Source: an uncultured Trichormus sp. (GTDB lineage Bacteria; Cyanobacteriota; Cyanobacteriia; Cyanobacteriales; Nostocaceae). Taken from it: a DNA stretch of 35,519 bases. The notes below the pieces were generated by a model. The model searched no databases, was not told the origin of the DNA, and saw only the letters and a program-made list of their open reading frames with translations. Location of the stretch: positions 1 to 35,519 of the forward strand of contig CAKZGI010000353.1 in the NCBI GenBank assembly GCA_936914905.1. The letters are read 5' to 3'. A program made the position numbers and the translations under genes. Positions 20,706 to 34,346 of this stretch are shown here, in pieces (positions within the stretch are counted from its first letter, which is position 1; each line of letters begins with the position of its first letter).

Positions 20706-21289
20706 TTATAAAACCTTAGTCACAGTTAACTTCATATCAGGAAATAAAGGAGAACAAATCACTTGATCACCTGTAAAAACCTCGTCCTCATAAAAACCTT
20801 AAACCCACTCCAAAACCGTCACTTTTTGCTCACTCGGATCTACAATTTGCTGAGTCGGATCTACAATCCAATACTCAGCAATTCCCCGCACTGCATACTC
20901 AGAACGCTTGTAACGATAATCCCGATTATCCTGATTGGGACTTACCACCTCAAGCACTAACAAACCTGGCGGGATATCCATTAAAATTAGAGAGCATGTA
21001 GCACCTGTCATCACCTGAGCTAATTCTTCAGAAAACACCACCAAATCAGGAACACACACCTCACCTGCCGAATATATACAGCCATTTGTATTTTCATACT
21101 CAAGCGGTAAAATGGGATACCTAATTTCAGAAAATAGGCAACTAAAAACATCGCTACTCGACGATTTAGCTCACTTTCTAAAGGCACAATAATTAATTCT
21201 CCGTTCTCCAACTCATATAAATTATCCGTACCGTCTTCAAATTGAAGAAATTCCTCAAAAGTCATCTTTTTAGCAGTTATAACTGTCAT
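20706..21289 (-). pseudogene. Broken Uma2-family (DUF820) restriction-like nuclease
   Basis: The start is MTVITAKKMTFEEFLQFEDG at 21289, then NLYELENGELIIVPLES, a PD-(D/E)XK-like fold typical of this large cyanobacterial family. A one-base indel in the TATATATT run near 21075 shifts the frame; the second half reads VCVPDLVVFSEELAQVM, LVLEVVSPNQDNRDY and RYKRSEYAVRGIAEYWIVDP, which includes the acidic and Lys motif residues. An in-frame 21-bp near-duplication (20826-20846 and 20847-20867) repeats IVDP. A TAA after LEWV then interrupts the last 31 residues (GFYEDEVFTGDQVICSP), which extend to 20706. So there are two inactivating lesions. Confidence 0.82.
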
Positions 21290-21482
21290 GGCTATTTCTC
21301 CCATAAAAATATACAAATTACAGTCCTGTATATCCTTAAATCCTGGGGATACTGATCCTAACAACCAAAAAAAATTCTACTTTACTGCTGGTAATTTCTG
21401 ATTAACGTTATAATTAAAATGCAACCAAAAATGTGCGTATATTATAATTTTACCCCTTAAAAATTCTTATCCTCAATCTTCC

Positions 21483-21826
21483 GTGAAAATTGCAATTAAA
21501 TCAACTTATGACCTATTGATTAAAAATCAAACAGATTGAACTGTGAAAGCGACATTATTAAGTTTACCAGAATGTCAAGGTATAGGAAATACAGAGACGG
21601 AAGCAATAGAAGCATTAGATCAAATTTTGCAGGCGCGTTTAGTAAAAGCTAGGATTGTGACTTTAGAAATTGAAGCACTGAAAACAGAAAATCTTTGGAT
21701 ACAGAAAATCCTTGGATGAAGTTTGCAGGAATCCTTGAGGATGATCCACATTTTGATAAAGTGCAGCAATATATAGCAGAATATCGTCGTGAATTATATG
21801 CAGCAATGGAGGAAGATTACCAATGA
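21483..21826 (+). pseudogene. Broken HicB-like antitoxin
   Basis: Read from the GTG at 21483: KIAIKSTYDLLIKNQTD, stop (TGA at 21537), then KATLLSLPECQGIGNTETEA and IEALDQILQARL, the pattern of a HicB-like antitoxin. A 17-bp near-exact tandem duplication (21684-21700 and 21701-21717) shifts the frame; removing one copy gives ENPWMKFAGILEDDPHFDKV and QQYIAEYRRELYAAMEEDYQ. The stop is at 21824, 24 bases before the PIN toxin remnant. Confidence 0.72.
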
Positions 21827-21850: not shown

Positions 21851-22277
21851 ATGAGCTTATGAATACTTGATACAGATCATTTTTATCTCTTTCAACATAG
21901 ACATCCATTTGTGGTAGAGTGTGTTAATAAAGTCAATTTTGAAGAAATTGCTATAACTATAATTAATTACTACTGAAGAACAATTGCGTGGTAGGTTTAA
22001 TGTAATTAAAAATGCCTCATCATCGGATCAGCTAGTATTAGCTTATGCAAATTCCCGGGCTAATTTAGAGTTTTTACAAACTGTTAGTTTACTGTAACTT
22101 AGCGAAGCTACTGGGAATATTTACACTGAATTAGTCAAGCAAAATATCCGCGTTAGTACTCAGGATTTACGTATTACTGCTATTACGTTATCAGTTCATG
22201 GTATTTTAGTTACTAGTAATTGGAAGGATTTTAAAAAAGTACCTAATTTGCGTCTAGAAGATTGGAGTTTAAGCTAA
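21851..22277 (+). pseudogene. Broken VapC-like PIN-domain toxin
   Basis: Starts MSL, stop, then ILDTDHFYLFQHRHPFVVEC (the first acidic strand of PIN nucleases, DTDH), continues with a frameshift near 21960 to NYY*EEQLRGRFNVIKNASS and LVLAYANSRANLEFLQTVSL, then, after a stop, IRVSTQDLRITAITLSVHGI and LVTSNWKDFKKVPNLRLEDW. The acidic catalytic residues (D in DTDH, D in STQDLRI, N and D in TSNWKDF) are still readable. Together with the preceding antitoxin remnant this was a VapBC-type pair. PIN toxins cut RNA; both partners are dead. Confidence 0.8.
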
Positions 22278-22283
22278 AAATCA

Positions 22284-22736
22284 TCACGTTGATACACTTT
22301 CTTTCATTTGCAATTTATTCATAATACTTTCTTCCAAAAAAGGATAGAGAAAATGAGGAGAGTTTAAATTAGCTGAATAGAATAGGTTTTGATAAGATTG
22401 ACAAGGTGATTCATCATTTAAAATTCGGTTATGAATAATTCTTGTTTATTTAGGTGCAGTTATCATTAATTGGGGAATAACATGAATAAATGCGGCAATT
22501 TGGTTTTCTATCTCAAAAGATTCCAGGAAATGAATTAACCCAAACAAATATCACTTATGGCTGTTGACATTGATCATCTGACATTGATCATCTAAAATCA
22601 GATGATATGCAGATAAATTATTTTCATCAGAAGCTTTAGCTATTGCAGTTAAAGCATGTTCAAAATTTGTAGCTTTTTCTTCTGTTTGCATTAACCAACT
22701 TTCTGTTAAGATTGTCATGAAATTATTTTGATTCAT
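22284..22736 (-). pseudogene. Broken candidate immunity gene next to a toxin domain
   Basis: The ATG at 22736 opens MNQNNFMTILTESWLMQTEE, then KATNFEHALTAIAKASDENN and LSAYHLILDD. It runs into a 14-bp tandem duplication (22565-22578, 22579-22592) and a TGA, after which the same frame continues FGLIHFLESFEIENQIAAFI and HVIPQLMITAPK, a TAA, and more text to the stop at 22284. The start lies 11 bases after the stop of the toxin-domain remnant, with GAGG as ribosome site, the arrangement expected for a toxin-immunity operon. I do not recognise the family, so the immunity role rests on position alone. Confidence 0.55.
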
Positions 22737-22747
22737 GGTTTTTTACC

Positions 22748-23131
22748 TCATTTAACAAAAATAGATTGCCAAGTTACCTTATTCAGTCTGATTAATGCTT
22801 GTAAACTTTCTCTGATTTTTCTATTAAACAAACCTTGAGAAAGATAAATAGAACGGACATCACAAATTTCTTGTCCTCATGCTTCTATAGGTGATAAGTT
22901 TAAATTAGGACGTTTACCATAAGAAATAGTTTGCCGATGGCGACCTCCTCTTCCTGGTGATAAATGTCGCATCATGATGGCAAATCCTTGATCTGTTGTA
23001 TAACCTAGAACTTCATCTTTCATAAAAGCATCCGCAGGTATATGATGAGCTGTCAGGTTATCACCTCTACATACCTTTTTTAGTAAGTCTCCATAAGTTC
23101 CTACAGTTCCTTCTACTGGTATTAGTTGCGG
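22748..23131 (-). pseudogene. Toxin C-terminal domain (AHH/HNH-like), truncated and broken
   Basis: The 128 codons read QLIPVEGTVGTYGDLLKKV, RGDNLTAHHIPADAFMKDEV, GFAIMMRHLSPGRGGRHRQT, ISYGKRPNLNLSPIEA, stop (TGA at 22877), then GQEICDVRSIYLSQGLFNRK and IRESLQALIRLNKVTWQSIF. The AHH dyad followed by the GGRHRQT segment is like the HNH/Endo VII nuclease tips of polymorphic toxins, usually the C-terminus of long secreted RHS-type or similar proteins. Here the stretch upstream of QLIPVEG contains stops, so the long delivery part is missing. The fragment ends right before the candidate immunity gene. Family naming is from memory of the motif. Confidence 0.65.
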
Positions 23132-23241
23132 TTAATTATTAGTAATTTATTTACTCCTGTTTGGTTATTTATACTGATTCATATTTGAATTATGAAGGAA
23201 GAAAGGGAATAATTAAAGTAAGGATTCATAAAGTAAGGATT

Positions 23242-23306
23242 CAGGATTTACAGGATTACAGGATTTACAGGATTACAGGATTTACAGGACTAGAGGATTT
23301 ACAGGA
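23242..23306. repeat. Short tandem repeat (about 17-base unit, CAGGATTTACAGGATTA)
   Basis: Four or so imperfect units of CAGGATTTACAGGATTA, in a gene-free stretch between the toxin remnant and the barstar remnant (23132-23460). A related motif, GGACATCCTGATTCAGACA, follows at about 23400 and recurs near 11483. The rest of the stretch shows no gene. Confidence 0.75.
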
Positions 23307-23460
23307 TGTTTTGTGATGGACTTTTGTTGTTTAAAAAAACTCATCATTAAATATTCACAAACAATCTATAAATAACAATCCTTTACATCCTTAAATCCAG
23401 GACATCCTGATTCAGACAACCACAACAAACGATTTACAAATAGCGCAACAGTGATTTTAC

Positions 23461-23845
23461 CTATTGCTTTATCGGTAAAAACTTTATGGAAATATTATTA
23501 GCTGCCTAGTATTATTTCGCTGAGTTTAAAATATCCAAAGCTATTTGGTACTGGATTAGGTTCAGCTTGAGCAAAGATATCAGCATAATCATATAATATG
23601 ACATATCTTTGAGCCGGACACTATGTTAAATTGGTGATAAGTTTATCAAAAGTATCCCAGTTATTGCCGAAGTATTGAAGAAATTCCATTGCTTCAGCAG
23701 CTTGTTTTAAACATCTTTCTTTGCTATTGATTTTTTTACCATCAAGCTCAAAAACTTTTGTTCCTGGTTCTGCGGCCATTTGTTAGACTGCTTGGCGGAT
23801 GTTTGATTTAATATCTGTTGATAAAACATTGAAGAAATTATTCAT
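23461..23845 (-). pseudogene. Broken barstar-family ribonuclease inhibitor
   Basis: The ATG at 23845 opens MNNFFNVLSTDIKSNIRQAV, stop (TAA), then KVFELDGKKINSKERCLKQA and AEAMEFLQYFGNNWDTFDKL, the barstar signature (ELDGKKI, then FxxYFGNNWDxFxxxL). A TAG follows at NLT, then CPAQRYVILYDYADIFAQAE, a frameshift, and YQIALDILNSAK in the other frame to a stop at 23461. The inhibitory Asp/Tyr surface of barstar around NWD is readable. It starts 24 bases after the stop of the barnase-like gene upstream and shared its transcript. In living systems it binds and blocks the RNase inside the cell. Confidence 0.85.
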
Positions 23846-23869
23846 AATATTCCTTACTTATTACAACTA

Positions 23870-24156
23870 CTAGATGACTTCTTGAAAGTTATTGTAGTGA
23901 TCAACCGTATAGTAAATTTCGCCATTTTGTCGAGTAATGAGGCGACGACTACCTCTCTTGCCCCGGGAGTAGGTACTGTGTATTCTTTATAATATACTCG
24001 CGGTTGTGGTGGCAATAATCCTTCAAGGTTTTTAAACACAATGCCATATTTACTATGAGGGTAGAGACCGCCTATGGAAATAAGATTGATAGTAGTTTGA
24101 ACTTCTGGAGGTAATTGATTAATGTGATTAATGTCAACTCGCAGTATTCCATTCAT
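23870..24156 (-). pseudogene. Broken barnase-type guanyl-specific ribonuclease
   Basis: The text reads VDINHINQLPPEVQTTINLI, VFKNLEGLLPPQPRVYYKEY, TVPTPGA, then a one-base frameshift in the run of C/G near 23964, after which the other frame gives RGSRRLITRQNGEIYYTVDH and YNNFQEVI. The general base Glu45 (in LEGLLP), Arg53 (QPRVYY) and the catalytic His (TVDHYNNF) are all readable, as in the N1/T1-type ribonuclease domain. Substitutions such as LEG for REG and PRV for PRG suggest relaxed selection. There is no signal peptide or delivery domain in front of the ATG at 24156. Directly followed by the barstar remnant. Confidence 0.85.
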
Positions 24157-24163
24157 TATAAAT

Positions 24164-24291
24164 AAGTAGGTGGGCGGAAAAATTTATAACTATGTCATGG
24201 CGAATGCAGCAAAGCTGAATCAAGCAGTCCCAAGGGTTTCAAGTAATTTACATTTTGTTAGATAGTTATGTTTATTTGTGTTTACCTACTT
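24164..24291. mobile_element. MITE-like element, 128 bp
   Basis: Terminal inverted repeats of about 30 bases, imperfect inside: the left end AAGTAGGTGGGCGGAAAAAT continues to TATAACTATG; the right end reversed is AAGTAGGTAAACACAAATAA then ACATAACTAT. Both ends are flanked by AAT (24161-24163; 24292-24294), a possible target duplication. It has no coding capacity and sits directly upstream of the barnase-like gene, starting 7 bases before its ATG, where it may have separated the gene from an earlier N-terminus or promoter. Confidence 0.7.
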
Positions 24292-24426
24292 AATTTCTCT
24301 GATTTTATCTACCCCTAGCTGAATGTATATAAGTACAGGAGCTTTTTCTTGCATGTTGTTTTTGTCATGTTAATACAATTGATGGATATAATAAATACTT
24401 AGTTAGATTAGATACATTTTTTCACG

Positions 24427-24669
24427 TCATCGTATCCGCCAAATCTTGATAGTCCCGTCATAACTACCACTAGCAAGAGTTTGACCATTTGGTCTGAATA
24501 CTATGGAACTAACCGAGTTAAAAGAATATCGTGGTAGGGTCTGTATTTCCCTTCGTGTATTTAACTCCTGTATAGGTTGCCCTGACATTGAACCAGAAGT
24601 ATCCAACAGAAGAATTACAGGACAACGATTTTCAGGGTTGTCCACAAACTCAGGTAGTCCTACTGGCAT
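24427..24669 (-). pseudogene. Chimera of a vWA-domain N-terminus and a WD40 C-terminus
   Basis: An open frame of 80 codons reads [37 protein letters not shown], then without a break [20 protein letters not shown] and KIWRIR. The first half is the start of a von Willebrand A domain with its metal-site motif DTSGS, as in TerY-like proteins; the second is the last blade of a WD40 propeller ([13 protein letters not shown]). The two families do not join in this way, so an internal deletion that fused the ends of two genes, or of a two-domain gene, is the likely cause. It is in one frame but too short to fold as either domain, so I call it a remnant. Confidence 0.7.
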
Positions 24670-24892
24670 GATTAATGCTCCTGGTTAATCAAAATCGGAT
24701 GCTAAATATTTAATTTAGATACTACTCGTTAATACATAACGTAACATAGTCGCTTTTACGTAACCAATAAATACATCTGTGTACAAGAAGTATTTAAAGT
24801 AAACCACTACAAATGTAGAGAATTTATATGGTCAATCTTTGCCCTAATTCCCCCCATCCGCTAAACTCAAAAATGCTGCGTTAATCTTTAAC

Positions 24893-33943: not shown

Positions 33944-34331
33944 GGGGCTTTAAAGGTTTCGACAGGTTGGCGAAAGCTGCTCTGTGATTCAGGTCGAGAG
34001 CGAGTCACCTCTCGGAAATCAAAGACTCGAAAGAAAAGTAAATGCGAACAATATCGTAAAATTTGCTCGTCGGGAAGCTCTAGTAGCTGCCTAAAATACC
34101 TCTTACAGGTTCGAGCGTCTTTGGTTTGACTCCGTTAAGGACTAAAGACCTAACCCCAACGGATGCTCCAGCAAGCGTTCTCTGGTTAGCTTGGTGGCTA
34201 AGATTAAATCAGAGTATCCTATGTTCGGGATAATGAACGATTCCCGCCTTGAGGGTCAGAAAGGCTAAACCTGTGAATGAGCGGGGGGTTAATACCCAAT
34301 TTGGACATGGGTTCAATTCCCATAAGCTCCA
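33944..34331 (+). ncRNA. ssrA: Transfer-messenger RNA (tmRNA)
   Basis: A one-piece tmRNA of about 388 bases. The 5' GGGGCTT pairs with the 3' AAGCTCC to form the acceptor stem, followed by the T-arm text GGGTTCAATTCCC. The tag reading frame starts with GCG at 34044 and reads ANNIVKFARREALVAA with TAA at 34092. It rescues stalled ribosomes and tags the unfinished protein for degradation. The Anabaena tag that I remember differs at two residues (RK/D where this has RR/E). CCA is not encoded and must be added after processing; the last base is set by the stem and could be off by one. Confidence 0.96.
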
Positions 34332-34346
34332 CTTTCAATAATTAAC

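Follow-up and report, generated by a model that had tools for sequence, protein, structure and literature searches.

A ribonuclease gene and the gene of its barstar-type inhibitor lie side by side on a contig from an uncultured Trichormus sp., both of them broken, with a miniature transposable element (MITE) just ahead of the ribonuclease start codon. This locus raises the question of what the pair was before it decayed and of what the insertion did to it: whether the MITE cut off an N-terminal part of the enzyme, whether it acted on the leader, or whether it landed beside genes that were going to be lost in any case. We analysed the whole stretch of 35,519 nucleotides (the window) together with related genomes. 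The reading that we prefer, with a probability of about 0.7, is that of a pseudogenised, signal-less RNase-barstar pair in which an ancestral MITE insertion into the leader cost expression and separate lesions followed in each lineage.

The two pseudogenes

The pair occupies positions 23461-24156, limits that the sequence-only reading of this DNA had given exactly for the two genes:

23870..24156, minus strand: RNase Sa/barnase-type RNase pseudogene (PF00545), from Pfam matches and alignment to relatives
23461..23845, minus strand: barstar-type inhibitor pseudogene (PF01337), from a Pfam match and alignment to relatives

That reading had also called both partners recognisable and their frames broken, and we found both statements to be correct. 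The first part of the RNase scored above the Pfam cut-off for PF00545 (E 8.3e-09, 36.3 bits; cut-off 24), as did the middle part of the barstar for PF01337 (E 4e-10, 40 bits; cut-off 23.4). When the profiles were searched against the whole genome, the C-terminal part of the RNase was recovered as a further PF00545 match, in a different frame, and the barstar, with one TAG read through, scored 50.3 bits over positions 2-68 of its profile. No further copy of either gene was detected in the genome of the window (G000): the two PF00545 matches at E <= 0.001 were both pieces of the RNase relic, and the single PF01337 match at E <= 1 was the barstar relic itself. The two short leftover pieces gave no Pfam match when searched alone. 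NCBIfam returned nothing better than chance-level matches for the pieces in the window, and it has no family for either the intact RNase or the intact barstar. Compared with its relatives, the RNase gene carries a 4-nt deletion, which splits it into two frames, and an in-frame insertion of 9 nt. The barstar gene, which lies directly 3' of the RNase gene in the order toxin then inhibitor, is interrupted by in-frame stops, and towards the C-terminus its frame shifts by 1 nt.

The catalytic positions of the RNase and the inhibitory positions of the barstar were placed from alignments to PDB proteins; an intact RNase from a neighbouring genus matched RNase Sa3 (PDB 1mgr) at E 1.2e-29 and barnase (1b21) at E 8.3e-04. 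The Glu, Arg and His positions, which we take to be the catalytic residues, are invariant in all 10 intact standalone homologs, that is, those in which the RNase is a gene of its own. All three are still encoded in the window, and to this extent the earlier description of the catalytic residues as intact is accurate; however, they are spread over two reading frames, so that no single polypeptide carries all of them. We therefore count the RNase as a pseudogene of the microbial RNase family (PF00545), not as a working member. The inhibitor core, likewise described as intact, is so at one position out of two. Like barstar, the window's gene has a PF01337 match over the cut-off, a place next to the RNase and the acidic residue at the position of Asp35, which together with Asp39 we presume to be inhibitory. 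The Asp39 position, placed via a PDB barstar that an intact relative matches weakly (E 0.35, against the protein of B. amyloliquefaciens), is Glu in intact relatives and Lys in the window, so that the relatives are acidic at both positions (Asp, Glu) and the window's barstar, which also has the in-frame stops, is not (Asp, Lys). As a pair of pseudogenes from a known family, the relic is nothing out of the ordinary.

The MITE and the order of events

The element ahead of the RNase is as follows:

24163..24292, no strand assigned: MITE with inverted ends and a TA at each end, from a copy search, an alignment and empty sites

What had been noted from the letters as a MITE-like element of 128 bp adjoining the RNase start proved to be a genuine, multi-copy MITE, 130 bp long with both flanking TAs and 128 with one. 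With a 301-nt query around the RNase start we obtained 86 candidates in G000 and scored 40 of them, namely the site itself and 39 further copies. A longer query gave 41 matches, including the same site, in G001, the second of the two genomes of the genus that were searched. We aligned 22 rows, which represent 20 distinct copies of an element of about 130 bp. Every row has TA at the left end, and 21 have it at the right end as well; the row that lacks it there is the G001 copy at the RNase site. The element is thus short, ends in terminal inverted repeats, occurs in many copies and duplicates a TA that is single in the empty site. The same family was found on plasmids of Nostoc, Trichormus and Tolypothrix at 71-83% identity (5 of 72,556 plasmid records).

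Comparison with empty sites identified the target as a TA that precedes the RNase start codon by 8 nt. In G039, G177, G195, G202 and G209 the leader continues through a single, unoccupied TA into the ATG, which shows that the MITE interrupts the leader and not the coding sequence. An ATP-synthase neighbourhood and a methyltransferase gene are common to the window, G001, G039, G177, G195 and G209, and these sites are therefore orthologous; G202 falls outside this comparison, its contig being too short. A similar abundance of MITEs, some of them tied to pseudogenes, is described for the bloom-forming cyanobacterium Anabaena sp. 90, in which 15 of 147 MITEs lie inside disrupted ORFs (PMC3542288). 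In contrast to those, the MITE in the window lies in a leader, 8 nt before a start, and not inside an ORF.

The second genome of the genus, G001, has the MITE at the same site, and its RNase-barstar pair is likewise broken. From the identical site we infer one shared insertion event, and since the alignment shows no coding lesion that G000 and G001 have in common, the insertion probably came first. The two genomes do share a non-coding change, the absence of the GGAGG that precedes barstar in G177, G195, G202 and G209; this motif is also missing from G039, where the pair is intact, so its loss need not be disabling. Set against the consensus of the remaining 20 rows, the two copies of the MITE at this site show 5 and 3 differences in 130 positions; 8 positions separate the two copies, and no change is common to both. 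This divergence is compatible with one old insertion without proving one.

Substitutions between the two broken pairs fit neutral drift: over both genes, 32 of the 43 changes between G000 and G001 are nonsynonymous (neutral expectation 0.80; binomial p 0.45). The intact pair G039-G177 departs from neutrality (35 of 66; p 2e-6). The G000-G001 comparison was more nonsynonymous than each of nine intact comparisons, which share sequences among themselves (odds ratios 1.13-3.70); the difference reached p < 0.05 in five and p 0.10 in one, and the three comparisons among G177, G195 and G209 were not distinguishable from G000-G001 (p 1.0, 0.42 and 0.63). For the RNase alone, dN/dS between G177 and G209 was about 3, on one synonymous change.

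The history that we favour would begin with a signal-less ribonuclease of the RNase Sa/barnase type and a barstar-type inhibitor, presumably cytosolic. Judged by homology, this intact ancestor was most likely toxin-antitoxin-like, in that the RNase would cut its own cell's RNA unless barstar blocked the active site. In the common ancestor of both species, a MITE would have entered the TA ahead of the RNase start codon, so that this codon lost its native leader and came to stand directly behind one arm of the element's terminal inverted repeat. The RNase would probably have been expressed less or not at all, and the inhibitor likewise if the two were co-transcribed; both genes then drifted and, as the alignment shows, took on different disabling coding lesions in the two lineages. 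On this account the insertion silenced the pair. Against this, the insertion is one phylogenetic event, so that its link to decay has n = 1; furthermore, the MITE RNA is not unusually stable (stability z -0.99, on which the MITE as an unusually structured RNA was rejected), and none of the five nearest homologs has a strong Shine-Dalgarno sequence in its native RNase leader, which together leave the effect on expression unproven.

Three remnants beside the pair bear on whether the MITE mattered at all:

24427..24684, minus strand: remnant of upstream genes, a piece similar to a vWA gene start and then a single WD40 repeat, from similarity to the gene set in G195
22880-23131, minus strand: toxin-like fragment, broken, with no Pfam match
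22551-22736, minus strand: Imm30 gene, truncated (26.5 bits against a cut-off of 27)

The MITE could have been a bystander, although we consider this rather unlikely: the pair would have become dispensable for some other reason, such as loss of an upstream vWA-PP2C-kinase set or ordinary turnover, and would have decayed anyway. Such a course agrees with the decay of the whole neighbourhood, upstream (the vWA/WD40 remnant) as well as downstream (the toxin-like fragment and the truncated Imm30), and with the sparse distribution of the RNase, for which a census found a PF00545 match in 17 of 217 genomes of this cyanobacterial family. It is harder to reconcile with a MITE that is shared while the coding lesions are private to each species, with the open frames of all 10 MITE-free standalone pairs, and with G039, which keeps an intact pair and has no kinase gene in a 13-kb stretch. 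Read as a leader insertion followed by decay, the locus is a clean natural case: the insertion is shared, the coding lesions are private to each species, and five genomes have the empty site.

The intact relatives

The 17 family genomes with a PF00545 match comprise the two with broken copies (G000 and G001), 10 with a standalone gene and five in which the domain ends a longer frame. The window's RNase resembles RNase Sa and Sa3 of Streptomyces in having the same PF00545 domain over nearly its whole length, and differs from them in being broken; barnase is a more distant member of PF00545. RNase Sa is a secreted enzyme. Barnase is secreted as well (PMC8625414). In contrast to both, none of the 10 standalone intact homologs in the subgroup of the window's RNase has a signal peptide. 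Ahead of the domain, a hydrophobic segment was present in 81 of 85 homologs outside this subgroup and in 0 of 10 within it (95 homologs in total), by a crude measure whose threshold was also reached by 258 of 1720 shuffled upstream segments. The 10 signal-less homologs make up one side of a branch with an SH-aLRT of 97 in a tree built by a quick method from 91 columns, in which 51 of 92 inner branches are unresolved. The 95 homologs of the census and tree remained from 102 loci examined, after seven had been left out (L016, broken; L017, L026, L027, L028 and L029, fused and divergent; L088, frame-broken). Eighty of the 102 were the best 80 of 581 confirmed matches, which skews the comparison set; those best 80 include four cyanobacterial records and no Nostoc-like genus.

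In each of the 10 genomes the barstar frame starts near the point where the RNase frame ends, from 18 nt before it to 32 nt after it, and this two-gene layout, together with the missing signal, fits a type II toxin-antitoxin module. Judged from such features of the sequences, the intact parent type may be a cytosolic toxin-antitoxin module. Zhang et al. 2012 (PMC3482391) describe simple barnase-barstar pairs as widespread and list cyanobacteria for both domains, so that the pair as such is not new. The signal-less pair is mildly unusual and belongs to one clade; among the titles listed by a literature search none concerned the signal-less cytosolic form, which is weak evidence of absence. A broader scenario is tentative: in one clade of this family, a secreted enzyme of the RNase Sa type may, together with its barstar, have become a purely cytosolic toxin-antitoxin module by loss of the signal, a module that stands in some genomes behind a possibly controlling vWA-phosphatase-kinase set and that in this genus would have been switched off by a MITE in the leader. 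The intact homologs are the better subject for further work, as a signal-less RNase with an inhibitor has no obvious role except to act on its own cell or to serve as a cassette.

The second of these roles would make the ancestor an orphan toxin-tip and immunity cassette of a polymorphic toxin system and not a toxin-antitoxin module, a doubtful alternative that is itself compatible with the history of the relic. A toxin-like frame and Imm30 do lie just downstream of the pair in G177, with broken forms in the window and G001 and Imm30 in G039; the RNase domain stands behind an eCIS core domain in two other genomes of the family; and simple barnase-barstar pairs are presented as a possible incipient toxin-immunity order in Zhang et al. 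2012 (PMC3482391). The RNase, on the other hand, has its own conserved start and leader, and both genes are under purifying selection in the intact G039-G177 comparison. Nor did we find a parent toxin with such a tip: at E <= 0.001 the standalone gene is the lone PF00545 match in each of the 10 genomes, and none of the 10 homologs, all without an upstream domain, has the polymorphic-toxin layout of a C-terminal domain on a large trafficking protein. In other genomes of the family the RNase domain does end larger proteins, at loci L017, L026 and L029. The eCIS core domain of these proteins scores above the Pfam cut-off in L017 and L026 and below it in L029. All three genes are followed downstream by a barstar-type match, which is weak for L029.

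An ancestor without a signal is also what the start of the gene indicates. The sequence-only reading had suggested that the MITE had removed an N-terminal export or fusion part, and had named intact cyanobacterial homologs as the comparison to make; these homologs spoke against it, with the very result that it had set as a refutation, a start at the corresponding Met and no domain ahead of it. A Met aligned with the window's RNase Met is present in 10 of 10 standalone homologs, and an in-frame stop lies 1-11 codons upstream of it in nine of them and 34 codons upstream in G021. Neither a signal peptide nor a domain nor a hydrophobic segment was found ahead of this Met in any of the 10. Five (G021, G177, G195, G202 and G209) contain an alternative ATG, GTG or TTG within the upstream stretch and may have a few extra N-terminal residues; the stretch in G021 is not strongly hydrophobic, and those of the four others are at most 10 codons long. 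Cyanobacteria do possess forms with a hydrophobic N-terminus (G065, G090, G353, G374, G460 and G467) and forms in which a longer frame ends in the domain (G006, G108, G116, G140 and G192). Given the conserved Met and the empty sites, unbroken into the start codon in five genomes, we nevertheless rejected N-terminal truncation by the MITE, and it is extremely improbable that this RNase ever lost an export signal or fusion partner to the insertion.

No plasmid-borne cyanobacterial RNase was found: 17 of 72,556 plasmid records match, all from non-cyanobacterial genera and at <60% identity. Plasmids of Enterobacter, Citrobacter and E. coli (H16-H20) carry a stretch that is 52% identical to the RNase over 78 residues, for which the gene table, itself incomplete, lists no gene.

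Neighbouring genes

That the breaks are assembly errors in functional genes can be dismissed as highly implausible, for although G000 is a draft of 485 contigs, several independent breaks fall within a short stretch, the 3-contig assembly of G001 is also broken, elsewhere, and the adjacent genes are full length in both genomes, at equal or near-equal lengths (e.g. 253/253, 97/97, 186/186 and 395/397 aa), which argues against sequencing error. Among these neighbours in the window, Pfam identified the methyltransferase and two chains of ATP synthase, A and C; the others were identified by position.

Upstream, the vWA/WD40 remnant corresponds to a set of three genes in G195, encoding a vWA protein, a PP2C phosphatase and a kinase with WD40 repeats, that directly precedes the RNase gene. 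With PADLOC, the kinase had weak kinase-type matches and the other proteins (RNase, barstar, vWA and PP2C) had none; a literature search by name for the vWA-PP2C-kinase set found no paper. Downstream, positions 22551-23131 of the window hold the remains of a second toxin-immunity-like pair, and Imm30 is full length in G039 and G177. Just beyond the barstar relic, the raw sequence at 23240-23310 is a run of a short repeat unit resembling GGATTTACA.

Further along, two overlapping frames at 20799-21364 appear as a split Uma2-type gene (PF05685), one matching the end of the family profile and the other matching its start weakly, under the cut-off. The short frames 21543-21719 and 21984-22097 gave no Pfam match and appear to resemble HicB- and VapC-like neighbours in other genomes. 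Taken together, the locus has the look of an assortment of conflict genes, of which several are dead in the window's species. The sole Rfam match in the window lies well apart from them:

33944-34332, plus strand: tmRNA gene, from an Rfam match
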